In this document: positions 1-62,407 of the stretch, piece after piece
Numbering within the stretch: the stretch's first letter is position 1
Layout: each line of letters begins with the position of its first letter
Source of the DNA: Scolanthus callimorphus
Lineage: Eukaryota > Cnidaria > Anthozoa > Actiniaria > Edwardsiidae
Reading direction: 5' to 3'
Assembly: GCA_033964015.1 (NCBI GenBank)
Contig: CM066923.1
Location: 2,046,001-2,110,000, forward strand
Length of the DNA stretch: 64,000 nucleotides
Translations under genes and position numbers: made by a program
The notes under the pieces: generated by a model
Told to the model about the DNA's origin: nothing
Databases searched by the model: none
Seen by the model: the letters and a program-made list of their open reading frames with translations, nothing else

Positions 1-52
1 CCAGGAGGGCATGGCTTAAAGTCGTGTCCAGTCCCCTCAGGGCAGTAGAAAC
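1..52 (-). CDS. Giant gene exon 34 (cut by window edge)
   Basis: Phase 1 acceptor CTCTCTAG, then G-FYCPEGTGHDFKPCPPG to base 1 with the frame still open. The gene continues left of the window. Confidence 0.8.
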
Positions 53-3000
53 CTAGAGAGAAATAATCAAATGGTCATTTTACGTTCTCTAGCAAGGAAA
101 ACCGTCATACTCGAGGATTCAGCGCTCGAAAAATCCCCCACAAAGAGTCGATTAGCCTAAAAAATAGCTGATCGAGGAAACCGCAGCTAAAACGTAGCTG
201 TAAGTAGGACACACGTATTATTGCTCTTAAAAACTTGAGTTTCGCTAGATCAGGACCGTCTAATCTGAATAAAGCCTACCTGCAGGACAGGGCCATGGTA
301 TTTCACGATTGACGCAGAAGTGGCCCGGAGGGCACACATAGCACTGGTGAGCAGTGGTATGATTCATGTAGGTCCCGGGTGCGCACGGCACAGGAGATGG
401 AGTGCCTGATGGACAGTAGTGTCCTATTGGGCATTTACCTCCTGTAAGAAACAAAACGGTACAGACTTATCATATAAGATTGAACAGAGAATCTCTACGG
501 ATATATAACAACTCTGTCCGAGAGCATCTGGAAGAGAAGGTTGCGGTTTGCAGGTTTGCGCAGCAAAGAACGTGCTAGCGACCTTCTGCTAAAGCAGTAT
601 AAACACAGCACCACCCTCAGTTGGTCGTCCCGCGCGCACCTGACAAGTCAATTACGGGACGGCACGCAAGAACTGCCAGCCAGAAAACTGCCTGCGTTGT
701 GATGAGGATCAGAGCTGTGCTGCGCTCCACTGTGCTGTGTTTTGTTGTACTCTGCTAATCATCTGTGATGTGCTATGATGTGCTGTGCTCTATTATAATG
801 TTCGTGTTAGGGGATTGTAATTAATTTTATCAATTAACATTACCTGTACTGTCATCGTGAGGGGCGGCTACCGACGCCTTCCCGGAGCAGTAATACCCAG
901 GAGTACAGTTCCCGGATGTTTGGTTCAACCCGGCCATCCCGCAGTACTGTCCCGGGTCACATGACTTACAGTCGGCTTGTGACGTCAGCTGGACGGTCGG
1001 GCCGTACGTGCCAGCGTTGCAAGGGATCTGGGCACTAGTACCCTTGGGACAATAGTTTCTGCCGATCAAGAATACAAAATAGTTATATAAATGGCTAGTT
1101 ATAACAGTTTGTATGAGTCCCCGAGATGAGCCGCTTGAGCACTTGGGACAAATATAATATTATATTGTTATATACTCCATCTCCTCCAAAGGGACACTTA
1201 GTGAATACGGTGTCTTATTGTCTGAGATTGTAATTCTTAGTCACTTTGAGCGTGACAGGACCGAAGTTTTGCGACAAAGTGTTGGTGTCAAAACAGATTT
1301 TTATTGGACAGAATCAAATAATCAGAATCAACTTTATTGGACAGAATCAAATAATCAGAATCAAATTTAAATATCACATAAAAAATATATATATTTACAA
1401 GGGAAATGTAATGTCCAATAGGGACGCGCAAACGGGCTCAAGGCCCATGCGAGGCGCGACCCCCTGTTAATAAGAAAATATATTAAGGACGATGTACATA
1501 TTTTAAAGTTTAAAAACTAGTTGCGGTGGCAGCCACAGTCGCGTACCAGGGACCAGGTACAAGACAGTTCAGGGTCATAGGTGTCAGACACCAGGGTGGA
1601 ATATAAACTGATCAGGAAACTTTGAGAGACATGTGGTTCAAAGAGTATTAGGAGGGGCAATTTTGCATATATAGTTCCAGAGTTTTACAATACGGTTGAA
1701 AAAGGAGGCCTGAAAGGTTGAGGTTCTGCAGGATGCCGGTTTGAGAGTAAGGGACGGATTCAGATTACATGAGCGACCATGCATTACAAAGAGACAAAGT
1801 CATTGACATCTAAATTAGTAGGTCCAGACAGGCACTTGCAAAAAAAGACCAAGTCTCTAATTTCCCTGTCATAAGTAAGAGGCAGAATGTTCAGTTTCCT
1901 TAGCCTGTCCCTGTAACTAATATCCCCGATCTTAGACCTCAGGATCCAGCGTGTTGCACGTCTTTGTTCTCTTTCAATGAGGGCTTTGAGCTTAACACTC
2001 CCGGGGGACCAGATATCCAAGATTTGGGTGTCAAAACTTTGACTTTTTCATCCAACAGTAACTATATCCAATTTGCTGAATAACGCACGGGTAATTACAG
2101 AATCAAAGTGCGCCATTTTCCATAAAAATAACGTAACGTTGTTCTGATTACCAAACTTTATCGCGAAACTTCAGCTCTGTCATGCTCAACTGGGAAGCTT
2201 AGTATCCAGTGCCCAAGTTTACCCCCCTCCCCCTTCAAATTTTGCGCAAATATTTTTCTGTAGCAAACGCTGCCTTGACCATTTCCCACGTACCCTTGTG
2301 AGCATACAATTCCTGTTGTTCCATCGTTAGGCGTCTTGCTGCTTGCACGCCCCTTGCACCAGAACCCAGCCTCGCAATCGCCTGTCCATTCCTCCTTACC
2401 CGTACCCTGACAGTATTTTCCAGGCGGGCAGTCGTTACATTCACCTTGGTTCTTACGGTGTGTTTGATTGGTATAGGTGCCTGAAAAACGGTGAAACGAA
2501 CGTAAATTTGCACGATAAGGGAGATACCATTACATGCCCACGTGGAGGGTTGCAGAAATCCCCCAAAATAACGCCAAAGCTTTTGAGCTTGGAAAATAAA
2601 AATGCCTGTAAGCCGATTTGGCAAATGAAAATAACAGCTTCGGGGCACAAAAATATCCCGGCACTTCTCTGAGCCAGGAATATCCTGCACAAGAAAACCT
2701 GCACAAACTCCCCCGAAAATATCTAATGGTGAGACACTGCACAACCACCATTTCCATCTCAGAATTGCATGTCAGACTTCATTCCTTGACAAACTCTCGC
2801 AGCTCCTTATTATACATGCTCATACGGGCCATGCAGCATTGACCAAACTATGTAACAACATAACCAGCACCTACCCGCAGTGCAAGGGTGTTCAGTAGCC
2901 GTCTTGGTGCCGTTGGTACAGTAATGCCCTGGTACACAAGGCGACGGTAGTTGCACCCCATGTACACAATGAGTTACATTCATGATGGTCGCATCACAGT

Positions 3001-6000
3001 AGTAACCCTCTGGGCAGTTCTTACAATCTCCTCTCTCGTACTCATCTTGGTAACTTCCGGACGCACATGGCCTCTGTACCGGGCTACCCTGGTGGCAATA
3101 ATGCCCAGGTGTGCACATATAAGCCGTGGGGCGCTTGTAGGCTTGCCCGGCAGGGCAGTAAAACCCTTCATCGCAAGGACCGGTGGGCTGGTCCAAACCC
3201 TCGACTTCACAGTATTGTCCGGCTAAGCATGGCTGGCATGCGGATATGTTTTTGTTCCCGTAGGAGGCCGAGTAAGTCCCCATGGGGCATTTTTCTGGGT
3301 TGTATGTTCCTGCCTTGCAGTAGTGTCCCTTCCAGCACACTCCTCCTGTGGTGTTATCGGTAGGGTTTGGTACATTAGCCCCCAGCGTGCAGTAGTATCC
3401 CGCGTCGCATTCGCCTTTCACTTTATCAAGTCCGCTAATATCACAATAATGACCTGAAATGAATAAAGAAGAAATTTCCTGATATCTGCTTCAGGGTGCA
3501 GTCGACGCTACCCTGGAAAAACTTCTAAAACGGTGACGTTTTCATCCGGTTAGGTCCCGTACGTACTACAGCCCCCCCCCCCCCCCCCCCCCCCCCCACA
3601 CACACACACCCAATGGCGGGGGGAGAGACCTGTTTGCACCCCTACCAAAAGCAACTCAAAGAATAAGTCTAATTTTTTAAAGATTGATTTCTACAGACAC
3701 AATATCACTTTATAGGCTAACAAACGTTTTTGTAGGCAATGCGAAGTATAATTTATTCTACGTGTTGGTAGCAAACGTAGTAGCAGATCATCCTCTCAAT
3801 AATGTACCCTGGATTGGTTAGGGCAAGTGAGCAGACAGGCGCTTCAACCTACCACGCGTGCAGGGTGTCGGCTGGTAGGACCCTTTAGGACAGAATTGTC
3901 CAGGTTGACAGATTCCCCCAGTGGTTTCATTAGTGCAATAGCACTGGGTCGCATTGCTATGGTAGGTCATACCCCCATATCTGTCGGCTTCCAGGACCAC
4001 GTCCCCCGTATACAATAGTACCCAGGAGCGCAATCCCCTGAGGGCTCCGGTAACCCCTCTCTGTCACAGTACCGTCCAGGCAGACATGGCTGGCAGGCGC
4101 TGAGGAATACAAAGGTCTAAGGTAAGCTAGTCTTGATACACCGATCTGTCTCCGATAGGAGTGACAATGTTATGATGTGTTTGTTATTTGGTAGTAAAAA
4201 CGAAGGTCATCTGAAGGAGATGGCATTTCCAGCGAAAAAAGAAAAAGAAAAGTGCGTGTTACGAAAAGGAAAAGTTAACAACTCTGATTTCAAGCGAAAA
4301 ATTAGCAATTCAAAGGGGGTAATTACCAGAACAAGGACTATGGCTTACTCCGAAATAACCCTGTGAAATCTACAGGATAGATAGCATTGTCATTTGCTTT
4401 CAGTAGTAAATAACATTACTTTGCGATCTGTTTCACTATATTCAATTCAAATCGAAATATTGACATTTATTATATAAACTTTAGTGTTTTATCAGGATTT
4501 CGGCCACTGAGAAATATCGTAATTCGCACGTGTGAAAAATTACGATAATGTCCATAGCGAAATTTGTTCACAAAAACAATTTTCACAAAAACGTTTATTA
4601 TAATAAACAGAACAATACATGGGCGCGCGGAGATATGAAATTGATCTTCTCGTGTTCAAATTTGAACACTCGAAGATAAATTCCATATCCCCACGCGCCC
4701 ATGTATTATTCTCTATATCTATTGCTGTTTACAAATCAAATCGTCCGACTCACCTGAAGTCTTGTTGTCCAGTGTTGTTGTTGAATGTCCCAATAGGGCA
4801 CGGGTGCTCATTCGCAAACTTGGTCCCATTTGGACAATAGTGTCCAGTTGGACAAGGCTCACTACATGACGACGAGTTCGCAGAACAGAAGAACCCTGAG
4901 CAGCACTCTTTACACGAGGACTGTCCCGTACGGTCATTATAGGTCCCTACAGGACAACCCAATGGGTATGAAGTCCCTTTAGGGCAATAGTGTCCCACCG
5001 GGCAGGGCCCTCCTGACTCCGTTACGTTGGGGGATTTTTGGACTTAGAGCCTCTCAAACAATAAAAGCCGGGATCACATTCAGCTGTGGGATCAATAAGT
5101 CCAGGCGATTCGCAATAGTGTCCAAATTTGCATTTATCACATTGGTCAGGGCTCTCCAAATGGGTAACTTTTGAATAGGTGCCGATTGGACAATTTTCAG
5201 GTTCATCAGTGTGGTCTGGGCAATAACGTCCCTGGGGACATGGTCCCGCGTCTCCTAGGGCCCCATATCCTGGGGTAGCTGTATCAGCGCCCTTGCGACA
5301 GAAGTAGCCTTTCCTACAAGGTCCTGTTTCGGTTGTTGCGTTCTCATAAGCACAGTACATGCCACCACCACAAGGTCGACATGCTGCGGAAATAACACAA
5401 AGAATAGAGGGTGAGCGCTAAACCAGACGCTTTCAGCCTAGTCATTGGTGTTCTGATCGGGCTTCCTGTGCACGGAGACGAACCGTGAGGAATAGCGAGA
5501 GCTGGGCCGAGTCACACGCAGACCGGTGACGTCACATCTCGAACCTTACCACAGGAAGCCCGCCCAGAAAGCTAGGGACTAGGCTGAGGCGCTTCCTGAT
5601 CAGGGTATTAAATGCTTTCCAACGTAACAGCGTGCAGTTGGAAAGCGTTTTCATTACGGTTCTATGCTTTACTATCACTTATGTGTTAATCTTTTGTTTA
5701 GAAATAGTCTCCTTACGGCGACAATACGTCGTTACGTAAGGATTTCACGATCAGCTTTGACAATAGAGCAATTCATTTGCTATAAATATAGTGTTTTGAA
5801 GTTTTTTTCAATATCTCGCCTTTTGGACCCGAGTTGGTGACCAAACTTGAAGTTTAGTTTTCATACTAGTTTAAAGCTTTAATCCTCGAAGCTTCATGCA
5901 CTGCATTTGATCGAGGAGTACGTTCCCTGGTTTTTGTCCCACGGGTTTTATCCAGGGTTTTCGTATCGGGCAGTGTATCATAAAATTGTATTTTTCTAGG

Positions 6001-9000
6001 CTAATGCAGAGTAACGTTTCATCTTGTAACTGCACTTTAATCACTTATAATTCGTTGTAAGCTTTGCATCGGTACCTTTTCACGGTACAAGGTGGCTTTA
6101 GTTTATACTACGCTCCGGTTAACGGAAAATATTGTATTGTTGCTGCGAGCGAAGCGAGCAGCATACTATTTCGAACGGTGGGATCTCTGTGGCGCACGAT
6201 ATTACTGAAGGCAAAGTCGATTTCGTGGGCTAGCGATGGATGATTTTGGCGCCTGCAGTGACGTCCTTACGTAATCAGCGGCTATCGGCAAATGATGAAT
6301 GCGCATGCCGACGCCTGCAGTATCGTCCTTACTAATCAGCGGTTATCGGAAAGTCCCTTAGTTCTTTTGCGAATTTGGAAAGTCTCCTCGTTGTTTTAGA
6401 AAGTTCCTTTGCTTCGTGAAGGTAAGTTTGAAAGTTTATCATTCAGATGCTACTTTATTTGTTCGTGGAAGTATTCATCAAGGCGATAGTCGTTAAGCGA
6501 TATTTCTAGAGGAAGGCAATGTGCTTTTAGAAGTCTTTCAACAGAGACCATCGATCGTGTTTTATTCGAAGGGGATGAAATGCACTTGAAGAACGCGTTA
6601 AACATGGAAGAGACGATCTCCCTGAACAGTTTACCGGATTGAGTCCTATCTCCTTTACAATTATCGCAGCACTTTACTTTCAATAGAAACCGCTAGTTTA
6701 TACTATTATTGTATTTCTAGTTCGCAGGACCTGAGTGTCTGTAAGTTAGTAAATTATATAATTGATTTGTAAATAACTGAGCACTCGCACTCTTCATGTG
6801 AATAAAATACGCTGGTTCACGTCCATAAGGCCCCAGCACGAGTCACACTCAATATGCTTTGTGTTGTTCCTTGCGCTTTAGCGCGCGGCGAAGGGTAGGA
6901 ATGACAGAGCGGATTTCGTACGTGAATAGTCCGCGCCGCGACCGTGACCATGCCGCGACTACGCGATTTCATTCCGTATCTACAGCAGGCCAGGTTTCGT
7001 GCCGCGACCGCGACACTTTTCACTGTCATACGAAATCTGCTCTATCGTTACATACGATTTCCCGATACTTTCTCAAGATATTCGTACGAAATACGTTCAC
7101 AAAACTAATACGAAACCAGCGTTTTGGTCTAGATATTTATTGGCTTCGTTATCATATCTGACGAAATTCACATAATATTGCTCGACTTATTGTAACGCGG
7201 GTCCAGATCGTGGTACTAGCAGAGTCCAAACGGCCCTTTCACTGCATTATAATCGGCGTTTGATGTTGAAAGGTCGAGTCGAAACTCTACATCCATAGTG
7301 TTCTATCAAATAACTGTTGTTGAACAAAAAGAAAAGAAAACACACCCATGACACAAAGGAGCAGATATGCAAACGCGTAAACAGACAATCAATTCAATAA
7401 CAAAAAAATTAAACCAAGCAAACGAGTAAAGGAAAACGAGGAACTCTCTCGTCCACTTACACGTCACATTCGCCAGTCCTGGTGTATCACCATAAGTGCC
7501 TTTCGGGCATGGCTTCCAGTTAAACCCAGTGTTTTCCTCACAATAAAAGCCAGGCGGACATGGGCTGGGATCTTGACTCTTGTCATTAACACAGTAATAC
7601 CCGGCTGGGCAGGGATTGCAGATGTGGGCGTGGGTGTGCTTCATGAAGGTGCCGTCCTACAAGAGACACATAATTAACAATTATTGATGGGGTTGAGCAT
7701 GATAGAGCCTTGACAATTCTCACTATCATGCGAAAACCGAATTCAATAATTGTTTTATTAGCTAGAGCAGATTCGTATGACTGTGAAAATCGCCGCGACA
7801 AAATTGTGCCGCGATGCGACCGTGCCGCGACTACGCGATTCCATTCCGTATCTACAGCAGGCAAACAACAGGCCAGGTTCCGTGCTGTTCCGTGCCGCCA
7901 CCACGACAGTGCAGCGCCGTGTCGCGGCACTTTTCAGTCAAACGAAATCTGCTCTATTCTCAATGGACTACTGGCTGCTGACTACAAGGCAGCAACACTG
8001 CTACAGTGGATTTCAAATGACTGTCGAAAAGCAAAGTAAATACACTTAGCCAATCAGAAACGAAACCCATTCAACAACCAACCAATCAGGCGACGAAGTA
8101 AATACACTTAGCCAATCAGAAACGAAACCCATTCAACAACCAACCAATCAGGTGACGAAGTAAATACAATTAGCCAATCAGAACGAAACCCATTCAACAA
8201 CCAACCAATCAGGTGACGAAGTAAATACAATTAGCCAATCAGAAACGAAACCCATTCAACAACCAACCAATCAGGTGACGAAGTAAATACAGTTAGCCAA
8301 TCAGAAACGAAACCCATTCAACAACCAACCAATCAGGTGACGAAGTAAATACAGTTAGGAAATCAGAAACTGAACCCATTCAACAACCAACCAATCAGGT
8401 GACGAAGTAAATACACTTAGCCAATCAGAAACGAAACCCATTCAACAACTAACCAATCAGGTGACGAAGTAAATACAAATAGGCAATCAGAAACGGAACC
8501 CATTCAGCCACAAACCAATCGACTTGCGTTTAGTCCTGATCAAAGAAAACAAGAGCCACGCTGTGTTTTAGTTTTTTTTTTTCGCATTCTGATTGGATGA
8601 CTAATCAAGGATGCAAGACATCAACCATAGAAACGTGTAGAAAACGCCTGATTTCCTTTCGACAGTCATCTGAAATCCGCTCTATAACCTCAGTTTGATG
8701 TGGGATTACTCCCAAATTATTAGAGCGGATTTCAGATGACTGTCTGAGTAATTCGCAATTACTTTGTAATTACTCCTATAGGTTTTAATCAGAATTAGTG
8801 TAGTTACTTTTCAATTGGTTTCACTAGTCATATGAAAACCGCTCTAGTGTGCTTTTCCCACAAGAGACACCATAGCATAAATAATAGGTTTAATCTGTGA
8901 TTCAGTGAGTTAATGAACGTTACTTACGGGACAAGGCCTTGGCTGAGGTGTCTTTCCGGGGCAGAAGTGTCCGGCCGTGCAGTTGCCTCCTGTGTTTCCA

Positions 9001-39000: not shown

Positions 39001-42000
39001 GAATTATTGTGGTCACAGTTATTGTCACTGTTGCTGCTGTTGTTATTATCGTTGCTGTTGTTGTTACGGATCTAACATCACCTAAAAACGTACATACCGC
39101 TGTATTTCCAACAGTGTAATAGCCCGCAGGACACGGGACCATTACGCCGCTATAGATTGAGGGACACGCATACCCCGCGAGGCAAGCCGTACATTCCGCT
39201 TGAGCACCTTTGCTATATGTACCCTGTTTGCATTTTATGGCCTTTGAGGAGGTTGTGCTGGGACACATGCATCCTGGAGAGCATGGTGTACAGACCTGTG
39301 GAGGAGGGCAAGACAAATATGTGTGGCTATTAAACATTTCCTTTCCTGTATAGGCTGGGATTCGTGTGGATTATATTTAACAAATAGATCTCGTTTTGCG
39401 TGCGTGTATACTGTAATAGATACACAGATGACGTCACAGAATTTCATGAACAAAAAAGTACGCAACGAGACGCAGCTATGACGTCAATCGCTATGATGTC
39501 AATCGTGCGTGTGTACTCTAATAACACCGGGCCTGTCAGCCAATAAGAACGCGCGTTTTTACTAGTGTTGTTGTATAACGCAATATACTGGCCATCGCAG
39601 CATTTATAGTCGTAACTATAATGAAAGCTGTAAATCATGCCATGTATTCATCTTTTTAAATGGTCCTTTATCCACCTGAAAATGCCAAACAAATTCCAGA
39701 AAGACAAAGGATTCTTCATGTAAATATCACGTGGTTTGAGTGGACAATTTGCATACGTACGTAAAGAGGTCTATTTATTTCCCTAATATAGCTCCCTAAC
39801 ATAGATAGACTCAGATATACTCTCAAAGGCATTTGAAACGTCTCTTCACATGCAGGGTTTAGTTCCCCTTTGTCGCTTACTCGTTGCTTCGCGAATCACA
39901 CTTCGCTCGCTTCTCGTTAGCCTGGGTTTTTTCGGATATTTGATTTTATTTGTGTGGGAACGCAGGATTCCTGTGTCGAGGGGAGGAAAGAAGTGAAACG
40001 AGACACAGGAATCCCGCGTGCCAAAAAATCAAATTTCCGAAAAACCCCGCTGGAGAGCCGGCTCGCAGGCTAACGAGAAGCGAGAGCAGAGAAGAGCGAG
40101 AGGAGAGAAGCGAGAGCAGACTTGCACGCTAGCTTCTCGTCGTTTCGCGACTCATCTCGGCAAGTGTCGCTCGCTTTTGTAAGTATCCTTAGAGAGCTTG
40201 ACTAATGGCAAGTCTAGCCAACAGACCGCCTTATTAGGAACAGCTTCTCGCATAAGCTTCCTATTTCGAAGCACCAACTTACGATTTGTCTTCCTGTGGA
40301 GTACCACCCGCTTTCACAGGGGAGAGATTGGTTTGTGTCTGTCCGGGGACAGGAGAACCCTTCAGGGCAGTCTGTACAGCTGGCTTGACTGCCGATTGAG
40401 AACGTGCCCTGAAAAGGACATGAGCATACACAAGTCTAAGTCAGTGAGGCACATGAAACCCAAGATATAATGCGTCTATTCGTACATATAGTCAGACAGC
40501 TGAATTTTTCTGCCACAACTACCTACCTTGGGGAACATGGACACAGATTTTCATACTATTGACTGTTTTTAAATATTTTTAAACCATCAAAAGGTAACAA
40601 TTATAAGTATATTTATATCAATCCATATATAATCTATATCAAATGGGTGTAACACTGCCTGATCACTTTAAGCTGTAACGATGGCTATGAAGAAGGCTGA
40701 CAACGGCAGAGATCAATGTAATCGATAGCGAAACGCGACGCGTTTTCGAGTTTTCAGTCTAGAAACCGTAGGGGATCACTGTTTATGGTCTACACGCCGA
40801 GAAAAAGCCACACTGTTAATATGGTTATATACACATGTATGCTAGCATATTTTTTTGGCTAAGAATTTACTCACCGGCAAACATGGAGCATTCCCACCTC
40901 CATCCGTACTCGGGCATTGCCAACCAGCTGGACACGCTTCACAAGAATCCTTGCATCCAACCGAGAATGTCCCAGCCGGGCAATCATAAGCTGTGGACTC
41001 GTTGGTTTTCGGACAGTACTTGGCCTTCGGACAAGGCGTGCAGTGCTGCTGGTTACCCAATGAGTAAGTACCTGTCGACATTTTAATAGCCTAGTCAGTC
41101 AATCCTTTGTCATTGTTTCCGTTCGCTAAGAGGTCACGTGACCCGGTCCTCCTTAAAATGAGCAGCTTTATGCAAATGATGCTCAGAAAGAAATCTCTTG
41201 ATAAACATATAAAAGCAAAGTTTCAGATTTGATTTTCCAAATTCAATCGATAACATGGTTCTATTATACATTTTCTGAATCAGCCGATGGAGATGGATGC
41301 TTTCTCCGACTTGTTATGTTGCTTGGCTGACAAAACATTGTTTTCATTGTGCAGTTCCAGAAAATATCCCTACCCCCCCCCCCCCCCACGGAAGGCAGCG
41401 GAAATTTCAAGGGGGTGGGGATCCGAGAGTGTAAAATTTCCGAGCGTTTGGTGGGTGCAGCACAGCGTCATTTTTCTTAGGGATGTGTGTTTAGTGTTTG
41501 ATGGATATATACCTAGACAAAGAAACATGGAGTACACGTGAGATATTTTTTTTTCATATTTTATAGTTGCAAACACTATGGAACAAAATAATTTAATCAA
41601 AACGCTTAGTCAACGGCTCTTTTCAAAATTCCAGGGAGGTGGGAGGTAGAACAAAAACTCATTGTCAACGGCTCACGGAAATTCCAGGGGAGTGGGCGTT
41701 TTAACAATCACCCCTGGAAAGGAAATTTCAAGGGGGAGGGGGTCTGAAACAAAAGTACCCTCCGGCAGGGGGATATGGAAATTTTCAGCAACCGCACATT
41801 TCATGAGAAATCTCGTCATAACCATCCACAAACAAATTTCTATACTTGATTTACAGAACTGAATCTTATTTTACTAAGCTAAGGTTTGAAGATTGCGTCC
41901 ACTTTTAATGGACGATTCCAACTATAAGCGCGCGCTCTCTTCTTTATTCCGAAATGCCCAAGTCGTGTCCCACAACTACCAGAATGCAGCGCGCGCTTTT

Positions 42001-43377
42001 TTAACAGTTTGTACGACAAATGTCCCACATCTACCGACATGCAGCGCGCGTGCGTTATAGCTGGAATCGTCCATTTGAAAGTAATTTGAAACGTTTCGTT
42101 ACAAGGTTTGAGCTTACCTGGTGTGCACTGTTTATTGTTGTCGGACGAGGCTACATTCGGACACTCCCACCCAGCCTTGCAGGTTGAACAGCTTGTGGCC
42201 CCTACATTGCTATATTGACCAGGAGTACATGCTGTGGGAAGTTGCTGGCGAGAGAGAACAAAGACATCTAAATAGACGGCTACTGCGACCAGTCAGCAAA
42301 AGGACATCGACATAACCCTCGCCCTTAACAACTTGAGGTCTTCATATTTCTGCAAACTCTGCACCGCCTTATTAATATACTTCCTCGGCTTTGGCGTAAT
42401 GTTTTGCCCATTTCAGATCACGTGGCATTCCCATGAGTATTCTTTCTTTGTTTGAGATGTTTCCATATTCATATATCCTTCGATGCGTAGCAGAAAAAGA
42501 AATAGAATACTCATGGGAATGCCACGTGATCTGAAATGGGAAAACATTACGCCCAAGCCAAGGAGGTCTATTGAGTTCTCAAAGCGTCTAAGCAACCCGG
42601 TAACTTTTGCAATACCTCTGACTGATGCTTATGATTGCTTTGATAGTCACTGAGCGGTCTATGAACCTGACTTACATTGGTTTGTGCACAAGCCATGCCC
42701 GCAGGACACTGGATACATTTAGACGCTCGAACTAGGCTGTAATATCCTGCATTACAAGCCGTTATATTATTCCTGGCGACAAAAAAAAAAACTGCATTTA
42801 AAACACATCCTGCTTTTCAAAAACAGTAAGCTTACGGGAGATCTCATTAAGTGGATTCCTGCGGTGTTGTCAAGGGAGAAAAGTGTTCTACTGCAACTTA
42901 CAGCAACGAGGGACACTTGAGCACGTCAAATAACTATGTCACCAAAATGACAATAATCGTAATTTCAAGGCTATTTGACAATTTATGATAATCGTAATTT
43001 CAAGGCTATTTGACAATTTATGATAATCGTAATTTCAAGGCTATTTGACAATTTATGATAATCGTAATTTTAAAGTTCGAGACTCTGATCAACCCGAAAA
43101 GGAAAAGGAGGAAAGGCGCCACCATACTCTTGGCCCCAGGCCTCGACTCTCGTAACCTCGACTCTCGTAACCCTCCCACACAGGTAGCCCAAAGCACACA
43201 GGAAAGACGAGCAACCAAGACGCCTGCGGAGAGGCCTACGGGATATCACTGTCTACTCACTCGGGTGTGGAGCACGCATAGCCCGCCGGACAGTCCGTGC
43301 AGTTAAGGGCGCGGTCCTGTCCGAAAGTAGTGGTCCCATACGGACACCTAGTGGCCAACCACGTGGTTGTGGGACAC
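1..43377 (-). CDS. Giant secreted cysteine-rich protein, ephrin-receptor-like/GCC2_GCC3 module array (partial both ends)
   Basis: A single minus-strand gene of at least 34 coding exons (listed separately), from 43377 down to 1. Every junction has GT-AG borders and compatible phases, and joining the exons gives about 8,384 nt (about 2,795 codons). The product is built almost entirely of short modules with C-x-x-C-x-x-G-x-Y-C, G-x-C-x-x-G-Y-Y-C, and C-P-x-G-T-Y motifs plus many N-x-S/T sites. This is the pattern of Ephrin_rec_like / GCC2_GCC3 repeats within the growth-factor-receptor cysteine-rich superfamily, so an extracellular disulphide-rich protein is expected. The first exons (43.4-32.6 kb) use CxxCPAGxxCP modules without YYC; later exons are GYYC-rich. 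No signal peptide, membrane helix, kinase or other C-terminal domain lies inside the window: the start falls in or beyond the N gap and the end is left of base 1. Four exons (28167, 8928, 4754 and 3853) each lack one base. The family call is from motif recognition; the function is unknown. Confidence 0.85.
280..441 (-). CDS. Giant gene exon 33
   Basis: A 1-1 exon of 162 nt: GKCPIGHYCPSGTPS, CAPGTYMNHTT, CYVCPPGHFCVN, PCPAG. Flanked by TTACAG and GTAGGC. Confidence 0.84.
844..1058 (-). CDS. Giant gene exon 32
   Basis: One leading base completes Gly, NYCPKGTSAQIPCNAG, CKSCDPGQYCGMAG, CTPGYYCSGKAS, DDSTG. Donor GTAATG in phase 1. Confidence 0.84.
1246..2030 (-). mobile_element. Non-LTR retrotransposon 3' fragment
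   Basis: The minus-strand frame 2020-1784 reads LKALIEREQRRATRWILRSK, then YRDRLRKLNILPL and DLVFFCKCL. This is the end of a CR1/L2-like reverse transcriptase, where the pattern Q-R-R-A-T-R ... Y-x-x-R-L ... L-x-L-P-L is typical. At its 3' side (1290-1370) the phrase TTTATTGGACAGAATCAAATAATCAG is repeated, like a LINE tail. 5'-truncated, no endonuclease seen; it sits in an intron. Confidence 0.7.
2294..2480 (-). CDS. Giant gene exon 31
   Basis: The acceptor TTTTTCAG gives G-TYTNQTHRKNQGECNDCPPG, then KYCQGTG, CEAGFWCKGRASS, GIVCSQ, ending with two Gly bases (phase 2). Length 187 fits both neighbours exactly, which supports this otherwise hidden exon. Confidence 0.85.
2875..3453 (-). CDS. Giant gene exon 30
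   Basis: Phase 1 acceptor ATTTCAG, HYCDISGLDKVKGECDAG, then an intact run of modules (CWKGHYC, CLAGQYCEVEG, CDEGFYCPAG, CTPGHYCHQG, CPEGYYCD) to HPCTAG. Phase 1 donor GTAGGT. Confidence 0.88.
3571..3610. repeat. Poly-C then CA simple repeat
   Basis: About 27 C bases followed by CACACA, in an intron of the giant gene. Confidence 0.9.
3853..4099 (-). CDS. Giant gene exon 29 (one-base frameshift)
   Basis: ACQPCLPGRYCDREGLPE to APGYYCIRG, then out of frame; the other frame resumes with TYHSNATQCYC and CQPGQFCPKGSYQPTPC. The exon is 247 nt where 248 is needed. Candidate sites are plus-strand C5 at 4003-4007 or 3972-3976. Confidence 0.76.
4604..4722. repeat. Hairpin (MITE-like) ATACATGGGCGCG...
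   Basis: The arms AATACATGGGCGCGCGGAGATATG and CATATCCCCACGCGCCCATGTATT are inverted copies around a short loop. A half copy lies near 22488-22540. Confidence 0.7.
4754..5383 (-). CDS. Giant gene exon 28 (one-base frameshift)
   Basis: The first part runs CRPCGGGMYCAYENATT to CLRGSKSKNPP. The second part, one frame away, runs NVTESGGPCPVGHYCPKG to NTGQQDF. The exon is 630 nt where 631 is needed. The shift sits in homopolymers: plus-strand G5 at 5029-5033 and T5 at 5035-5039. Confidence 0.8.
5443..5590. repeat. Short interspersed element, copy 1
   Basis: CGGGCTTCCTGTGCACGGAG, ACGAACCGTGAGGAA and GTGACGTCACA resemble 61525-61655, which has the same ordered blocks (CTCGGAGATGAACCGTGAGGAAG, GGGACGTCACACC, GCCCACCCAGACTAGGCTGA). 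A dispersed element of unknown class. Confidence 0.5.
6905..7046. mobile_element. MITE, CGCGACC-rich family (copy 1)
   Basis: Ends GAGCGGATTTCGTACGTGAA and CATACGAAATCTGCTCTAT are inverted copies. The interior is CCGCGACC-rich. Two sisters lie at 7763 and 18481. Confidence 0.72.
7461..7656 (-). CDS. Giant gene exon 27
   Basis: Phase 0 start DGTFMKHTHAHICNPCPAG, then YYCVNDKSQ, CPPGFYCEENTG, CPKGTYGDTPG and LANVT. Phase 1 donor GTAAGT. Confidence 0.84.
7763..7957. mobile_element. MITE, CGCGACC-rich family (copy 2)
   Basis: TAGAGCAGATTCGTATGACTG at the left and an inverted AAACGAAATCTGCTCTA at the right; the interior is shared with copies 1 and 3, including TCCATTCCGTATCTACAGCAGG. Confidence 0.75.
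8006..8686. mobile_element. Inverted-repeat element with an internal 62-bp satellite
   Basis: Left end GTGGATTTCAAATGACTGTC, right end GACAGTCATCTGAAATCCGC, inverted to each other. The interior is mostly the 62-bp array at about 8032-8530. The ends match the GAGCGGATTTCA family at 8720 and 21028. Confidence 0.7.
8032..8530. repeat. 62-bp tandem repeat, 8 copies
   Basis: Unit containing TAGCCAATCAGAAACGAAAC and ATTCAACAACCAACCAATCA, repeated eight times with a few substitutions. Confidence 0.92.
8720..8847. mobile_element. MITE, TAGAGCGGATTTCA family
   Basis: TAGAGCGGATTTCAGATGACTG at the left and AGTCATATGAAAACCGCTCTA at the right, with GTAATTACTCC interior. Relatives at 21028-21156 and 25161-25406. 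Confidence 0.7.
8928..9312 (-). CDS. Giant gene exon 26 (one-base frameshift)
   Basis: SSDKHHGDCTAGYHC and CPEGRYCPAGTEAPLNCPKG read in one frame, and TFSNSLGLPSADNC to CTPGMYC, CWAGYFC and RPCP in another. The exon is 385 nt where the phases need 386. The shift lies at plus-strand 9156-9163 (CCCTTGGG). Confidence 0.8.
9370..9575. repeat. Dispersed repeat GTGACAATGTTAT family (copy 1)
   Basis: GTGACAATGTTAT, AGTTTGTTGTTCTATGAC and GGATGGATCG...ATTCCATGAGATTT occur in the same order at 29768-29935. A short relative lies at 4150-4195. Confidence 0.6.
9830..10050. repeat. Dispersed CCACCCTGGAATTCC repeat (copy 1)
   Basis: CTGTTGAGGA, then repeated CACCCTGGAATTCCA-like phrases separated by TTCTTGACC. 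Relatives at 38770-38985 (same strand) and 55545-55810 (opposite strand). Confidence 0.7.
10207..11406 (-). CDS. Giant gene exon 25 (1.2 kb, largest)
   Basis: A 1-1 exon of 1,200 nt, fully open, beginning LCAPGFYCKRGSNTARP and ending GKYCEG. It packs many modules with no intron, for example CPAGHYCPAGTS, CMAGYFCPEGSSS, CPCPGGKYCGSSG, CQPGFYCPKGS and CPGGYYCDKDKD. The intact frame contrasts with the shifted neighbours downstream. Confidence 0.92.
11780..11925. repeat. Hairpin CTCGTACCCAGAGCCCG
   Basis: AATCTCGTACCCAGAGCCCG (from 11803) and CGGGCTCTGGGAACGAGATT are inverted around a short loop; a further CTCTGGGTACGAGA follows at 11909. Intronic, MITE-like. Confidence 0.6.
12254..12426. mobile_element. 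Foldback element with 70-bp arms
   Basis: GTTTACAAATAAAGATTAAA at the left is inverted at the right as TTAATCTTTATTTGTAAAC, with arms through CGACGTTTCGAGGCTACTGCC. Only about 33 bases of loop. It lies 40 bases past exon 24's donor. Confidence 0.85.
12467..12800 (-). CDS. Giant gene exon 24
   Basis: The acceptor chosen is GATCTCAG at 12801-12802, because it gives phase 0 and TGLSKKEDCLPCKGGKYC after GTYNPQ. A second CTCAG 11 nt inside would break the frame. Continues CHAGFFC, CPPGSYCPVGT, CPNGTFSN and CSDGMYC to NLTEPTG. Phase 1 donor GTAAGT. Confidence 0.84.
13246..14525. repeat. 20-bp minisatellite, about 63 copies
   Basis: Unit GATAGAACGCAACAGAACAT and point variants (ACAGAATAT, GAACACGATAGAAAGCGAAA). 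The unit lacks stops in all three minus-strand frames and 20 is not a multiple of 3, so long fake ORFs (426-449 codons) appear. More units follow at 14908-15075 after an interrupting element. Confidence 0.97.
14526..14882. mobile_element. Inverted-repeat element inside the 20-bp array
   Basis: CAACTTGTCGCGCAACATTT near 14528 and 14688; inverted AAAATGTTGCGCGACAAGTTG at 14792 and GTTGCGCGACAAGTTG at 14864. Array units lie on both sides, so it probably inserted into the array. Confidence 0.65.
14908..15075. repeat. 20-bp minisatellite, resumed
   Basis: AAGCGCGAAAGAACATGATA and AGAACGCAACAGAACA units like 13246-14525, more diverged. Confidence 0.85.
15181..15343 (-). CDS. Giant gene exon 23
   Basis: Phase 2 acceptor CTTCGCAG, NVTGLSNCTQCPAGRYC, CPEGYYCPAGTG, CPPGTYNPQ, donor GTAAGA in phase 0. 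It lies between two large satellite arrays. Confidence 0.83.
15420..16590. repeat. About 70-110 bp tandem repeat, 14 copies
   Basis: Unit GTAGCCGGCTATGATTGTTT, TCGAGAGGAGTCGTCAATAC, AGACTCGCTCGTGCCGTCGT, with a 13-bp sub-repeat CGTGCGTTAGCCT present one to four times per unit, so unit length varies. Confidence 0.95.
16914..17275 (-). CDS. Giant gene exon 22
   Basis: Phase 0 start DNGNCTNDNSTGYDYGGVC, then CPPGYYCLKGT, CSDCPSGKACNGVG, CRAGFYCVGGS, CPEGYYCPEG and CSPGFF. Ends in phase 2 before GTACAA. Confidence 0.85.
17410..17560. repeat. TCTG/TTTG-rich simple repeat
   Basis: Degenerate GTCTGTCTGT runs; similar sequence at 17880-17955. Confidence 0.85.
18295..18447 (-). CDS. Giant gene exon 21
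   Basis: A 0-0 exon of 51 codons: GTLNPSPGQPSNISCVKC, CTAGEHCSQPG, CDAGYYCREGSSSSTP. Donor GTAATA. Confidence 0.83.
18481..18673. mobile_element. MITE, CGCGACC-rich family (copy 3)
   Basis: GAGCAGATTTCGTATGACTG and the inverted CAGTCATACGAAATCTGCTC form a long near-perfect hairpin with GGTACGGC-rich stems. Confidence 0.78.
18722..18914. mobile_element. MITE with AAAGGCCCAT ends
   Basis: TAAAGGCCCATACGCGACCGGGAACCTTTGCG at the left, GCTTATGGGCCTTTAAG at the right. A partial relative with TAAAGGCCCATTATCAACCG at 26982-27085. Confidence 0.6.
19090..19338. mobile_element. MITE with GGGCACTC(A/G)CAC ends
   Basis: TTAAAGGGGCACTCACACGC at 19092 and GTGCGAGTGCCCATTTAA at 19317 are inverted ends about 245 bp apart. 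Confidence 0.55.
19836..19970 (-). CDS. Giant gene exon 20
   Basis: A 0-0 exon of 45 codons: SNRASKCTTCTEGNYC, CLRGHYCPAGS, QCPP. Donor GTAAGT. Confidence 0.83.
20046..20502. mobile_element. MITE with TACAGTAAAAACCCGCATAA ends
   Basis: TACAGTAAAAACCCGCATAAAAGAACA and TGTTCTTTTATGCGGGTTTTTACTGTA are near-perfect inverted ends 457 bp apart. A lone end lies at about 31066-31090. Confidence 0.82.
20819..20987 (-). CDS. Giant gene exon 19
   Basis: One leading base completes Gly, then YYCAGDTNPTPTGPCSEG, GHYCIGGAKTP and CPVGTYQE. Donor GTACGA in phase 0. Confidence 0.83.
21028..21156. mobile_element. MITE, TAGAGCGGATTTCA family
   Basis: Same ends and same interior phrases (GGTTTTATTCAGAATT, GATTGGTTTCACTA) as 8720-8847, 128-129 bp long. 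Begins 40 bases upstream of exon 19's acceptor. Confidence 0.75.
21252..21705. mobile_element. Foldback element, ATCTTTTAGGGG family
   Basis: CCCGGGGGGGGGG...GACCGGGGATGATCGTCG and its inverse CGACGATCATCCCCGGTC...CCCCCGG frame repeated TATCTTTTAGGG. Related pieces at 45480-45790 and 60910-61030. Confidence 0.75.
21790..21938 (-). CDS. Giant gene exon 18
   Basis: APPEGLTGGLCPAGGYC, CPVGTYSSTPG, CIACDPG, ending with two bases of the Gly codon (phase 2) before GTAAGT. The tandem GGGT makes this donor position the only one that fits the next exon. Confidence 0.82.
22660..22854 (-). CDS. Giant gene exon 17
   Basis: A 0-0 exon of 65 codons: GKFCTTGCTKPQDCPSG, CTPCPAGKFCAGFG, CDAGFYCRERAYTS. Donor GTATGC. 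Confidence 0.82.
22995..23048. repeat. (ATTC)n microsatellite
   Basis: About 12 ATTC units in the intron before exon 17. Confidence 0.95.
23160..23342 (-). CDS. Giant gene exon 16
   Basis: A 0-0 exon of 61 codons: AGVCPSGYYCKEGTG, CPVGFYRNAS, CSVCISGYYCDELG, ending KICPQ. It joins exon 17 to complete CPQGKFC. Confidence 0.84.
23607..23906. mobile_element. MITE with TAGTATAAACCAACTAATGG, copy 1
   Basis: Contains inverted phrases (AACCAACTA/TAGTTGGTT) and a CATTCGGCCTTCGGCC hairpin. It is nearly identical to 52398-52697 over about 300 bp. Confidence 0.85.
24612..24734 (-). CDS. Giant gene exon 15
   Basis: A 0-0 exon of 41 codons: QATPIKCPNGTFNPNTG, CLKCTQGYYCEPEGLEKP. Acceptor TGTCCAG and donor GTAAGA. 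Confidence 0.83.
25161..25406. mobile_element. MITE, TAGAGCGGATTTCA family (longer form)
   Basis: TAGAGTGGTTTTCACATGCC and GACAGTCATGTGAAAACCGC are inverted, about 245 bp apart. Ends about 50 bases from exon 14's donor. Confidence 0.7.
25454..25645 (-). CDS. Giant gene exon 14
   Basis: A 0-0 exon of 64 codons: ASGAYECTTCYPGYYC, a cysteine-spaced stretch FVCPAGLECKAGTDRC, then ACPKGSYCLRGDE. Donor GTGAGC. Confidence 0.84.
25741..26020. mobile_element. MITE with GCCCGTTCACACG ends
   Basis: ATAGCCCGTTCACACGCAGTG and CGCCGTGTGAACGGGCCATT are inverted, 280 bp apart. A partial relative occupies about 56670-56792. Confidence 0.75.
26286..26398. repeat. 25-bp tandem repeat, 4-5 copies
   Basis: CAGTCCAGTAACGCAATACC followed by GGTAA, repeated head to tail. 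Confidence 0.9.
26784..26876 (-). CDS. Giant gene exon 13
   Basis: The shortest exon here, 31 codons, phase 0-0: EVGKCKQCVPGYYCPGE to GIGNFS. Flanked by TTACAG and GTAAGT. Confidence 0.82.
27423..27588. mobile_element. MITE with AATGGACGAT ends (copy 1)
   Basis: AATGGACGATTTCAGCTATAA at the left and inverted GCAGGATTCGTCCATTA at the right. The interior shares ACAACTACCAGGATGCA with the better copies at 41907 and 58783. Confidence 0.7.
28167..28338 (-). CDS. Giant gene exon 12 (one-base frameshift)
   Basis: The first part reads THRGTQFPCAAGKFSNK to CPEGHYCPQGTAVPK. The module then continues as KCPRGTYNDILSVK, but one frame away. The exon is 172 nt where both intron phases demand 173. The shift lies at the A4 run (plus-strand T at 28207-28210); an A5 would restore the frame. 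Confidence 0.78.
28465..29165. mobile_element. Inverted-repeat element with an internal 90-bp satellite
   Basis: The left end has TAGACTGCTTGCCGTCCC, then GGCGAACGTACGTAAACCGA. The right end has the inverse CTCGGTTTAGGGACGTTCGCC and AAGGGACTGCACGCAGTCTA. The array at 28498-29100 fills the middle. Confidence 0.75.
28498..29100. repeat. 90-bp tandem repeat, nearly 7 copies
   Basis: Unit starting AACGTACGTAAACCGAGAGA, copies differing at only two or three sites. Because 90 is a multiple of 3, repetitive ORFs of about 200 codons appear on both strands; these are not genes. Confidence 0.96.
29768..29940. repeat. Dispersed repeat GTGACAATGTTAT family (copy 2)
   Basis: Shares the ordered blocks described at 9370-9575. 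Confidence 0.6.
30379..30561 (-). CDS. Giant gene exon 11
   Basis: A symmetrical 1-1 exon: YFCPLSTMSPTQFPC, CPAGSWSNLTN, CYECPKGWYC, CEAGHYCPPG. Acceptor TTTCTAG and donor GTACAT. Confidence 0.84.
30671..30790 (+). repeat. tRNA-derived SINE-like sequence
   Basis: A box A-like TTGGTCTAGCGGTCAGAGC (30681-30699) and a box B-like GAGTTCAAGTCC (30737-30748) at tRNA spacing, but the T stem does not pair well. More like a SINE head than a working tRNA. Confidence 0.5.
31107..31478 (-). CDS. Giant gene exon 10
   Basis: KTQCKTCPPGYYCPQGSA followed by CSAGYYCPAGS, CPAGTYTDYHN and CTPCPERFSCSAG, ending PCAPG with a phase 1 donor GTGAGA. At 372 nt it is one of the longer exons and fully open. Confidence 0.86.
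31697..31962 (-). CDS. Giant gene exon 9
   Basis: Phase 2 acceptor TTACAG, then LVCPAGHYCLEGT, CPAGKYSQELGLEG, CRMGYYCPQG, CPPGHYC and CPPGTYQEELGST. Donor GTGAGT in phase 1. The first fully YYC-type modules begin here. Confidence 0.85.
32030..32183. mobile_element. Hairpin with TAGCCTGCTAGCCGGCT ends
   Basis: TAGCCTGCTAGCCGGCTCTC and AGCCGGCTAGCAGGCTA are inverted, with inner arms GGCGCGCGGGATTCC. A relative lies at 39917-40073 and an end pair at 56098-56176. Confidence 0.8.
32395..32610. repeat. Dispersed repeat CCGATGGAAATGGATGCTTT family (copy 1)
   Basis: Shares CGAATTCAATC, AATCAGCTGATGGAAATTGA and TTATGTTGCTAGG with 41090-41340 and 58985-59208. Ends about 10 bases from the donor of exon 8. 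Confidence 0.7.
32623..32865 (-). CDS. Giant gene exon 8
   Basis: SMTSCVACNPGYVCRG, CPIGSYCPDG, CPSGTYGNTTG and CAACPPGFFSPEG. The donor is GTTAGT at 32621-32622. A dispersed repeat ends only about 10 bases beyond this donor. Confidence 0.82.
33190..33370. repeat. Direct duplication, about 55 bp
   Basis: GTGACGCTGATCAGACGCGA and AGATGGGAAGTGCCAACGTA occur at about 33198 and 33309, just downstream of the donor of exon 7. Confidence 0.9.
33397..33578 (-). CDS. Giant gene exon 7
   Basis: Starts in phase 0 at ACISCPAGFHCPNISS, continues CTDCPAGSKCPN and CELGTYSN, and ends with two bases of a split Arg codon before GTGAGT (phase 2). Confidence 0.82.
35283..35470. repeat. Long hairpin ACCCAATTCAGATCATGTGA
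   Basis: CATCTTGTTGCTACCCAATTCAGATCATGTGATGATTCC (from 35307) is inverted at 35420-35463. The loop is about 70 bases. Within the 5.5 kb intron. Confidence 0.8.
35640..35960. repeat. GTGATGATGG / GTGTGTG low-complexity tract
   Basis: Purine-rich GGTGATGATGGTGTGGGG runs; gives His/Pro/Ser-rich false ORFs on the minus strand. Confidence 0.92.
36164..36505. repeat. Tandem duplication of about 195 bp
   Basis: AAAACCAGCTCGACGAGCGA to AACAAAATATCCACGACATG (36168-36311) recurs at 36362-36503. The minus-strand ORF 36745-36200 spans both copies and looks incidental. Confidence 0.8.
36660..36862. repeat. Tandem repeat, about 45 bp, 4-5 copies
   Basis: Unit GTTGATCATGCCAAGAATTC, CAGTCTCCATGCAACACA. 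Confidence 0.92.
38395..38535. repeat. Long hairpin with GTGATTTCCAGAATAAACAA arms
   Basis: GTGATTTCCAGAATAAACAA, TCTCGCCAAGTGGAATCAGG and their inverse, meeting at GGCCTTACGGCC. Arms are about 60 bp. Confidence 0.85.
38770..38990. repeat. Dispersed CCACCCTGGAATTCC repeat (copy 2)
   Basis: CCCCCTGTTGAGGACCAAAC then ATCCACCCTGGAATTCCAGT and CACCCTGGAATTTTGC. Confidence 0.7.
39098..39295 (-). CDS. Giant gene exon 6
   Basis: A 0-0 exon of 66 codons: VCTPCSPGCMCPS, then CTACLAGYACPS and PCPAGYYTVGNTA. The donor GTATGT opens a 5.5 kb intron, the longest in the gene. Confidence 0.83.
39917..40073. mobile_element. Hairpin, same family as 32030
   Basis: TTAGCCTGGGTTTTTTCGGA and AGAGCCGGCTCGCAGGCTAA, inner arms CAGGATTCCTGTGTCG and CACAGGAATCCCGCGTG. 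Confidence 0.75.
40283..40408 (-). CDS. Giant gene exon 5
   Basis: A symmetrical 0-0 exon of 42 codons holding one complete module, GTFSIGSQASCTDCPEGFSC through CESGWYSTGRQI, flanked by TTTTCAG and GTAAGT. Confidence 0.83.
40875..41071 (-). CDS. Giant gene exon 4
   Basis: The phase 1 acceptor restores G-TYSLGNQQHCTPCPK. Two CxxCP modules follow (CPKAKYCP and CPAGWQCP), ending APCLP in phase 0 before GTGAGT. Confidence 0.83.
41090..41340. repeat. Dispersed repeat CCGATGGAAATGGATGCTTT family (copy 2)
   Basis: AAATTCAATCGATAAC, AATCAGCCGATGGAGATGGA, TTATGTTGCTTGGCTGACAA. Begins next to the acceptor of exon 4. Confidence 0.65.
41907..42075. mobile_element. MITE with AATGGACGAT ends (copy 2)
   Basis: AATGGACGATTCCAACTATAA and TTATAGCTGGAATCGTCCATT, inverted; interior AGAATGCAGCGCGCGC and CCGACATGCAGCGCGC. 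Confidence 0.82.
42118..42244 (-). CDS. Giant gene exon 3
   Basis: Begins in phase 0 with QLPTACTPGQYSNVGA, includes CSTCKAGWECPN, and ends CTPG split by a phase 1 intron (donor GTAAGC). A module of the non-YYC type. Confidence 0.82.
42393..42558. mobile_element. Foldback element, GGCGTAATGTTTTGCCCATT arms
   Basis: GGCGTAATGTTTTGCCCATT, TCAGATCACGTGGCATTCCC and their inverted copies at 42505-42558. Loop about 40 bases. Confidence 0.85.
42676..42772 (-). CDS. Giant gene exon 2
   Basis: Acceptor CGCCAG, one leading base, then NNITACNAGYYSLV and CIQCPAGMAC. The donor GTAAGT follows CAQTN in phase 0. The length of 97 nt equals 1 plus 32 codons, matching both neighbours. Confidence 0.8.
42951..43073. 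repeat. 39-bp tandem repeat, about 3.2 copies
   Basis: Unit TAATCGTAATTTCAAGGCTA, TTTGACAATTTATGA, head to tail next to the exon by the assembly gap. Confidence 0.95.
43261..43377 (-). CDS. Giant gene exon 1 (cut by assembly gap)
   Basis: Coding sequence runs out of the N gap in the frame CPTTTWLATRCPYGTTTFGQ and ends ACSTPE, using the donor GTGAG just below 43261 (phase 2). The upstream border is hidden by the Ns, so the true exon start and any earlier exons, including a signal peptide, are not visible. Confidence 0.75.
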
Positions 43378-43477
43378 NNNNNNNNNNNNNNNNNNNNNNN
43401 NNNNNNNNNNNNNNNNNNNNNNNNNNNNNNNNNNNNNNNNNNNNNNNNNNNNNNNNNNNNNNNNNNNNNNNNNNNNN
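43378..43477. other. Assembly gap, 100 Ns
   Basis: Exactly 100 N bases, the usual placeholder for a gap of unknown size. It truncates the first visible exon of the giant gene and may hide its 5' exons and promoter. Confidence 0.98.
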
Positions 43478-44982: not shown

Positions 44983-45042
<60 letters not shown>

Positions 45043-47563: not shown

Positions 47564-47695
47564 CCCGTGACTCAATCCTCGCATCTGATTGGCTAATTCC
47601 CAGGCAAAGCCTCATCTCCCATGACGATCGCACGCGTTCCATCGAAAATACACAAAATCCAAACTTGACAGCGGTCGGACATTCCACGGCAGAAA

Positions 47696-62255: not shown

Positions 62256-62407
62256 CATCCTCGCGCGCCAGGGTCCTCCCCTCACCTCCCCCCAGGGGAC
62301 AGATGGTTAAATGCAGGCCTCTGGTAGCAGCTTTTGGGTGGTAAAATTTGAAAACTGTCCTCTGTCCCCTGGGGGGAGGTGAGGGAGGACCCTGGCACGC
62401 GAGGATG
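62256..62407. mobile_element. Hairpin MITE with 10-bp target duplication
   Basis: CATCCTCGCGCGCCAGGGTC...CCCAGGGGACAG and its inverse form arms of about 47 bp. AGAAAGCCCG flanks both sides (62246-62255, 62408-62417). Confidence 0.85.

Follow-up and report, generated by a model that had tools for sequence, protein, structure and literature searches.

The window, that is, the whole 64,000-nucleotide stretch analysed here (C13:2046001-2110000 of the 597-Mb, 302-contig genome assembly of Scolanthus callimorphus), carries a long run of cysteine-rich coding exons on its minus strand. A gene model was built by dynamic programming over splice sites followed by hand curation. The model places 34 exons with 2,795 codons between positions 43377 and 1 (Table 1), numbers identical to those that a sequence-only reading of the window had reached by joining exons by hand. 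On the minus strand it scored 1,111.6, whereas the same scoring gave 73.4 for the plus strand and stayed between 3.5 and 8.4 for 12 first-order Markov nulls. All 33 exon junctions are phase-consistent at AG/GT sites, which alone is weak proof because the program enforces phase. The encoded protein is 71.2% identical to a Nematostella protein (P0129) over 2,569 aligned residues and keeps 276 of 284 cysteines, which proves the model independently of the splice-site scoring and agrees with the earlier proposal of a single giant gene. During curation, eight exons of the first model (at 62368, 60488, 60364, 45052, 37729, 33653, 27820 and 3641) were discarded as junk and two pieces were merged; an extra exon suspected between 3851 and 3453 was not required, because exon 25 has the same short module.

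Cysteine accounts for 308 of the 2,795 residues encoded in the window, and the most frequent cysteine spacings are 5 (n=100) and 2 (n=46). The change of module style described in the sequence-only reading was recovered when motifs were counted in 150-residue bins. Zone 1, with CPAG modules and YSxG spacers, extends to about residue 300, YSxG being confined to the first two bins; zone 2 consists of GxYC and CPxGTY modules, and GxYC-type motifs are first seen in the bin from residue 300, at about exons 7 to 8. N-glycosylation sequons are about threefold enriched in the window part (56, against a mean of 18.8 and a maximum of 32 in 500 shuffles). Pfam Ephrin_rec_like (PF07699) was found in two of the seven window exon frames scanned, at 21.4 and 20.5 bits, below the cut-off of 23.1, so that the expected family was recognised in the window exons without passing the threshold. 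It does pass in full-length relatives, with 72.0 bits in a Percolomonas protein (P0214) and 49.9 bits in another, which bears out the assignment to a very long GCC2_GCC3/ephrin-receptor-like array. Zone 1 also matched the ELAPOR1 TNFR-like model with 33.8 bits (cut-off 33.2). A super-repeat with the motif series FCIR-W-P, CQPGxFCPKGS and PTPC occurs in two copies within the array (10207-11406 and 2875-4099), and the same series is present in fish, turtle and cat sequences. Large minisatellites lie in introns at 13266-14526, 15451-16584, 28499-29099 and 8034-8520 (20-, 85-, 90- and 62-base units); some of them are open in several frames and resemble coding sequence.

The array had been described as open at both ends. 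This is true of the window, but both ends of the gene could now be placed outside it. About 280 residues of Nematostella P0129 precede the residue that matches window exon 1. Comparison of P0129 residues 1-282 with a 50-kb contig, C269, gave five pieces with 55, 66, 71, 75 and 75% identity, one of which contains a stop (1 TAG). The last piece ends at C269 position 3 and query residue 282, the window match begins at query residue 283, and the C269 end and window exon 1 read into each other in frame across the N gap at 43378. The array continues up C269 to ~10.6 kb, and a hydrophobic, signal-peptide-like exon at C269:12123-12458 ends in the first cysteine module. In relatives, 16 of the 16 N-termini examined start with a hydrophobic stretch (weak in P0214) that is followed at once by cysteine modules. 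The 5' end had also been sought within the window between the gap and 47.6 kb and was not found there. Because C269 adjoins exon 1 in frame, the N gap marks either a scaffold misjoin or a missing insert, and the sequence at 43478-64000 may not adjoin the giant gene in the genome.

On the 3' side, the 80 kb preceding the window were modelled. The array runs to ~-15200. Beyond it lie the exons for a juxtamembrane region and a strong transmembrane helix, then coiled-coil-like exons and lastly a C-terminal domain, up to ~-36850, which puts the 3' end of the gene ~37 kb past position 1. The notion of a nearly pure array was thus not upheld. One relative, P0121, is a single uninterrupted frame of 2,397 residues on a 9,169-base contig, and it maps collinearly in 25 pieces to -13118..-36847 with 2,340 of its 2,397 residues covered, a pattern that resembles the spliced transcript of a relative. 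The single frame and its collinear mapping therefore indicate that array, helix and tail form one polypeptide in a relative. An earlier version of the 3' model that spliced around the membrane helix was replaced by an open frame, and P0121 supports the single piece. A tandem repeat at ~-8800 to -9750, whose unit holds a piece of an array exon (KGHLCPAGFYCPRGT) in several copies, may be a coding expansion, a satellite or an assembly error. Summed over these rough, unpolished models, the protein would very roughly comprise 8,000 residues, with an array of ~6,300 and a cytoplasmic tail of ~1,500. The best explanation of the whole, and in our judgement a probable one, is that the window holds the central part of a single gene, whose product is a giant type-I membrane protein with a tethered rod.

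The domains around the membrane were surveyed in 246 proteins drawn from the matches listed, 120 of which are short array pieces. The juxtamembrane domain was present in 80 of them, including four oomycete proteins, Percolomonas and P0175, which from its GI-style name we take to be Oxytricha. A hydrophobic helix lies within or just after the juxtamembrane match in 78 of these 80, and the stretch after the helix spans 163 to 1,867 residues, reaching at least 1,000 in 33 of the 78. The combination of array, juxtamembrane domain and helix is common to animals, oomycetes and Percolomonas. In a tree of 41 of the 81 juxtamembrane sequences, rooted only at its midpoint and weak in its deep backbone, the animal rows, three further rows and the window gene group together (100/100), as do the four oomycetes (99/92); the window gene itself groups with P0121 and P0122 (100/100). 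The P0121 domain is 52% identical to that of S. callimorphus, and its structure was predicted with a pLDDT (predicted local distance difference test) of 84. Among the fold matches listed, the model is cupredoxin-like, with a pseudoazurin alignment spanning 83 to 255, and we predict a cupredoxin-like fold for the juxtamembrane domain from this relative. In cupredoxins the type-1 copper ligand Cys lies in the C-terminal loop. In contrast, in the 69 of 81 sequences whose strand was found by pattern, only 2 have a Cys near this place and 67 are without it. A low-confidence loop inside the domain is basic. Of the 73 anchored loops (7 of 80 were unanchored), 45 carry RxxR and 59 a dibasic pair, whereas array windows, random ones in the case of RxxR, do so in 70 of 1,540 and 102 of 1,400 cases, respectively; both controls are lenient since the arrays are Arg-poor. 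In the predicted structure, the strands on either side of this loop seem to be part of one sandwich, and cleavage in the loop would therefore leave the two chains associated.

Beyond the helix, the tail looks mostly coiled coil, as judged by eye. By single-sequence search of the 246 proteins, the C-terminal domain was matched in 44, comprising animals, Percolomonas (3.7e-27) and protist-like rows, and was not matched in the four oomycetes or P0175. The P0121 domain is 71% identical to the S. callimorphus one, and its model has a high-confidence core that, among the fold matches listed, resembles zincins, suggesting a zincin-like fold. Zincin metallopeptidases carry HExxH with a catalytic Glu. 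In contrast, the 25 of 44 C-terminal domains with a motif recognised by pattern (the other 19 were unmatched) show HxxxH with the Glu in 0 of 25 and both His in 17 of 25, and some vertebrate domains are without one His as well. Pfam found no family in three pieces of the juxtamembrane region and tail (412, 309 and 325 residues), only stray single-member matches for the two domain alignments, and Ephrin_rec_like alone in the whole protist proteins P0214 and P0158; the tail domains could not be named by sequence searches of Pfam, NCBIfam or the PDB.

The array has many relatives. Exon 25 has at least 1,151 at E <= 1e-10 among 2,935 candidates and residues 1-900 have at least 1,056 at the same threshold of 7,975 scored; the juxtamembrane query gave 8 at E <= 1e-5 of 5,955 scored. 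Array holders among the matches listed include Nematostella, Clytia, Acanthaster, Diadema, Ptychodera and Branchiostoma, and, among other animals, sharks, teleosts, frogs, lizards, birds, alligator, molluscs, Lineus and Bolinopsis. Outside animals, they include the oomycetes Plasmopara, Saprolegnia, Globisporangium and Pythium as well as Percolomonas, Heterosigma, Triparma and Ectocarpus. Conservation of module order was assessed as the longest increasing run of best-match positions for 68 windows of the window part in 20 chosen relatives, with 200 shuffles each. The runs were 65 in Nematostella, 51 in Acanthaster, 42 in frog, 29 in Plasmopara and 26 in Percolomonas, compared to 16 to 20 in the best shuffles. 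The sequence-only reading had proposed a search for the same two-zone order in other proteomes. Module order across the window part does recur: 17 of the 20 relatives exceed every shuffle, the exceptions being Oxytricha (18), Heterosigma (14) and Bolinopsis (14). In the rows examined, database names for relatives are uncharacterized, or zonadhesin, SCO-spondin, Notch or fibrillin, and in a search of open-licence papers no study was recognised as dealing with this protein family. Judged by sequence, the giant protein appears to be a member of an old eukaryotic family for which no name was found.

Ephrin receptors, SVEP1, SCUBE and ELAPOR share the short cysteine module family, but the ectodomain of the giant protein is nearly all module, and the other domains of those proteins were found in none of the pieces scanned. 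Ephrin receptor tyrosine kinases have a cytoplasmic kinase, in contrast to the three juxtamembrane/tail pieces, P0214 and P0158, where Pfam detected none. Zonadhesin is defined by von Willebrand type D domains, and none was found in the window and tail pieces scanned with Pfam. The likeness to zonadhesin and SCO-spondin, both large cysteine-rich extracellular proteins, is one of name only: the rows so named have PF07699 or nothing in the Pfam column, with no von Willebrand or thrombospondin domains. FMG-1B, found at the ciliary surface of Chlamydomonas, is likewise a giant glycoprotein that passes the membrane once, but its cytoplasmic end is short. When a profile of 24 exon-25 relatives was searched against the PDB, one sequence was significant, the Chlamydomonas mastigoneme protein MST1 (8tx1; whole-sequence E 1.8e-12), the next being TNFRSF9 chains at 0.056 or above; single-sequence searches of the PDB did not find MST1. 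The published structural description divides MST1 into nine Ig-like domains, a ~680-residue cysteine-rich domain and a poly(proline) helix; it gives the cysteine-rich domain (residues 1,176-1,853) a length of 26 nm and ascribes filament formation to it (PMC11015965). MST1 and the giant protein share growth-factor-receptor-type cysteine-rich repeats, which in MST1 belong to an extracellular filament protein. Unlike MST1, the giant protein combines an array of ~6,300 residues with a juxtamembrane domain, a membrane-spanning helix and a tail, and its models lack any long poly(proline) stretch; the layout described for MST1 includes no membrane helix (PMC11015965). Identity as an ephrin receptor, zonadhesin or MST1 was rejected on domain layout; the giant protein may nevertheless work like MST1. 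If the array rose per residue as the 26-nm MST1 domain does, simple arithmetic on this analogy would give a length of ~107 nm for the 2,795 residues encoded in the window and of roughly 240 nm for the array as a whole.

Together, these features suggest a membrane-tethered, probably heavily N-glycosylated rod. From outside to inside it would comprise the signal-peptide-like start, the disulphide-braced array, the cupredoxin-like juxtamembrane domain, one helix, the coiled-coil tail and the zincin-like domain. The basic loop is probably cut by a protease of the furin/kexin type, with the two chains staying together as strands of one beta-sandwich, and this joint could be a point of release or of force. 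Beneath the membrane, the rod would be linked to other proteins through the coiled-coil tail and the pseudo-peptidase. Instead, the array might be released and polymerise in the extracellular matrix as a secreted or shed adhesion filament, the membrane part being a biosynthetic anchor only. The basic loop would permit such release, and filament formation by the MST1 domain is a precedent. However, the near-constant helix and the many tails of at least 1,000 residues exceed what a disposable anchor needs, and the C-terminal domain is common to animals and Percolomonas; we consider this unlikely. Of the extended matrix molecule envisaged in the sequence-only reading, the extracellular rod is probable, but a free molecule was not borne out, given the helix and the ~1,500-residue tail downstream. 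Type-I topology, the processing-like loop, the long tail and module order preserved over great distances would also suit a Notch-like or MEGF10-like surface receptor, in which particular modules bind a ligand or particle and the tail signals after furin-type processing, but no known signalling domain was detected by Pfam in the three tail/juxtamembrane pieces, the two domain alignments or the two whole protist proteins, and the tail looks mostly coiled coil, making a receptor improbable.

Four one-base frameshifts were read as X in the window (near 28210, 9161, 5031 and 3973), and each fits one missing base in an A4, C3, C5 or G5 run. Single-base homopolymer loss is a usual error of noisy long reads. 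The 3' array model needed 25 frameshift steps, some of them inside the tandem repeat (-8.8 to -9.7 kb), and the tail model none. Over 1,635 aligned residues, the 3' array shares 68.3% identity with Nematostella and keeps 168 of 175 cysteines. Since identity and cysteine retention are similar in frameshift-rich and cleaner parts, the sequence gives no sign of long decay of this copy. The contig of the window carries a paralogue of the giant gene in two copies, at C13:6.85-6.92 Mb and, 2.5 Mb away, at 9.37-9.44 Mb, which are 98-99.5% identical in the stretches compared; either the assembly contains both haplotypes or the segment was duplicated recently. The paralogue includes a partial juxtamembrane match (33% identity). 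Two near-identical stretches of these copies, aligned over 7,423 bases, differ at 79 mismatches and five indels, of which one is a single base in a homopolymer. General base-level noise in the assembly is thus not obvious, which weighs against intactness. A decaying gene or assembly artefact, whose frameshifts would mean that no full protein is made from this copy, would accord with the number of frameshifts and the scarcity of indels, but it is hardly likely in view of the retained identity and cysteines of the 3' array, the tail free of frameshift steps and the fit of all four window frameshifts to homopolymers one base short. Other strong Ephrin_rec_like arrays occur at C10:2.025-2.054 Mb, C5:20.86 Mb and C8:30.24 Mb, two of which are single open frames of 846 and 1,050 residues.

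Other features lie on the far side of the N gap. Close to the gap, at ~44984-45040, the minus strand has a homopolymer of over 50 G, a possible cause of assembly trouble. A plus-strand gene at 47690-49051 and 51127-51651, with a signal-peptide-like start, many EGF repeats and a non-EGF cysteine-rich insert, is in head-to-head orientation to the giant gene in the present assembly. A plus-strand exon at 60342-60641 has a weak villin-headpiece match (21.8 bits, cut-off 27) and perhaps belongs to an actin-binding protein.

Table 1. Exons of the giant gene and the adjoining gap, in window coordinates.
Feature	Position	Strand	Basis
Exon 1 (zone 1), continues into N gap, in frame from C269 position 1	43261..43377	-	splice-site model
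N gap, 100 bases; C269 end reads directly into exon 1 here	43378..43477		contig-end comparison
Exon 2 (zone 1)	42676..42772	-	splice-site model
Exon 3 (zone 1)	42118..42244	-	splice-site model
Exon 4 (zone 1)	40875..41071	-	splice-site model
Exon 5 (zone 1)	40283..40408	-	splice-site model
Exon 6 (zone 1)	39098..39295	-	splice-site model
Exon 7 (zone 1 end)	33397..33578	-	splice-site model + motif bins
Exon 8 (zone 2 start)	32623..32865	-	splice-site model + motif bins
Exon 9 (zone 2)	31697..31962	-	splice-site model
Exon 10 (zone 2)	31107..31478	-	splice-site model
Exon 11 (zone 2)	30379..30561	-	splice-site model
Exon 12 (zone 2), one-base frameshift near 28210	28167..28338	-	splice-site model
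Exon 13 (zone 2)	26784..26876	-	splice-site model
Exon 14 (zone 2)	25454..25645	-	splice-site model
Exon 15 (zone 2)	24612..24734	-	splice-site model
Exon 16 (zone 2)	23160..23342	-	splice-site model
Exon 17 (zone 2)	22660..22854	-	splice-site model
Exon 18 (zone 2)	21790..21938	-	splice-site model
Exon 19 (zone 2)	20819..20987	-	splice-site model
Exon 20 (zone 2)	19836..19970	-	splice-site model
Exon 21 (zone 2)	18295..18447	-	splice-site model
Exon 22 (zone 2)	16914..17275	-	splice-site model
Exon 23 (zone 2)	15181..15343	-	splice-site model
Exon 24 (zone 2)	12467..12800	-	splice-site model
Exon 25, 1,200 bases, first super-repeat copy	10207..11406	-	splice-site model
Exon 26 (zone 2), one-base frameshift near 9161	8928..9312	-	splice-site model
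Exon 27 (zone 2)	7461..7656	-	splice-site model
Exon 28 (zone 2), one-base frameshift near 5031	4754..5383	-	splice-site model
Exon 29, start of second super-repeat copy, one-base frameshift near 3973	3853..4099	-	splice-site model
Exon 30 (zone 2)	2875..3453	-	splice-site model
Exon 31 (zone 2)	2294..2480	-	splice-site model
Exon 32 (zone 2)	844..1058	-	splice-site model
Exon 33 (zone 2)	280..441	-	splice-site model
Exon 34, extends past window edge to ~-2909; more exons to ~-36850	1..52	-	splice-site model

Where the tethered rod stands on the cell is a matter of analogy. We place it, as a plausible guess that falls short of probable, on the surface of motile cilia or flagella, where it would resemble a mastigoneme. 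This guess fits the named array holders, which are lineages with cilia or flagella at some stage, but a list of matches does not amount to a presence/absence test. The MST1 match is weak, its best stretch having an i-E of 0.016, with no stretch passing alone and a large composition bias. In choanoflagellates, the vane filaments, whose composition is called mysterious in one account, survived proteinase K, and the authors there favour a carbohydrate or glycoprotein over a proteinaceous nature (PMC9671500); this survival speaks against a plain protein. A broader and doubtful reading is that the family represents an ancestral membrane-anchored eukaryotic flagellar hair. An ancestor shared by animals, oomycetes and heteroloboseans would then already have had array, split juxtamembrane sandwich and helix in one protein. 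Animals and Percolomonas would have retained the pseudo-zincin end, which oomycetes either lost or carry in a form that escapes recognition. The mastigonemes of algae would represent a secreted branch, and the family would be the first molecular candidate for the vane or hair filaments of animals and choanoflagellates. The absence of the C-terminal domain from the oomycete rows makes this reading somewhat less likely.

The layout and, mostly, the module order are kept between a cnidarian, oomycetes and Percolomonas, and strong constraint and a basic cell-surface role are therefore to be expected. If the rod is ciliary, the composition of flagellar hairs and vanes outside green algae would become experimentally approachable. 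Its unusual split-sandwich joint and its conserved pseudo-peptidase are further features of the giant protein that merit study.
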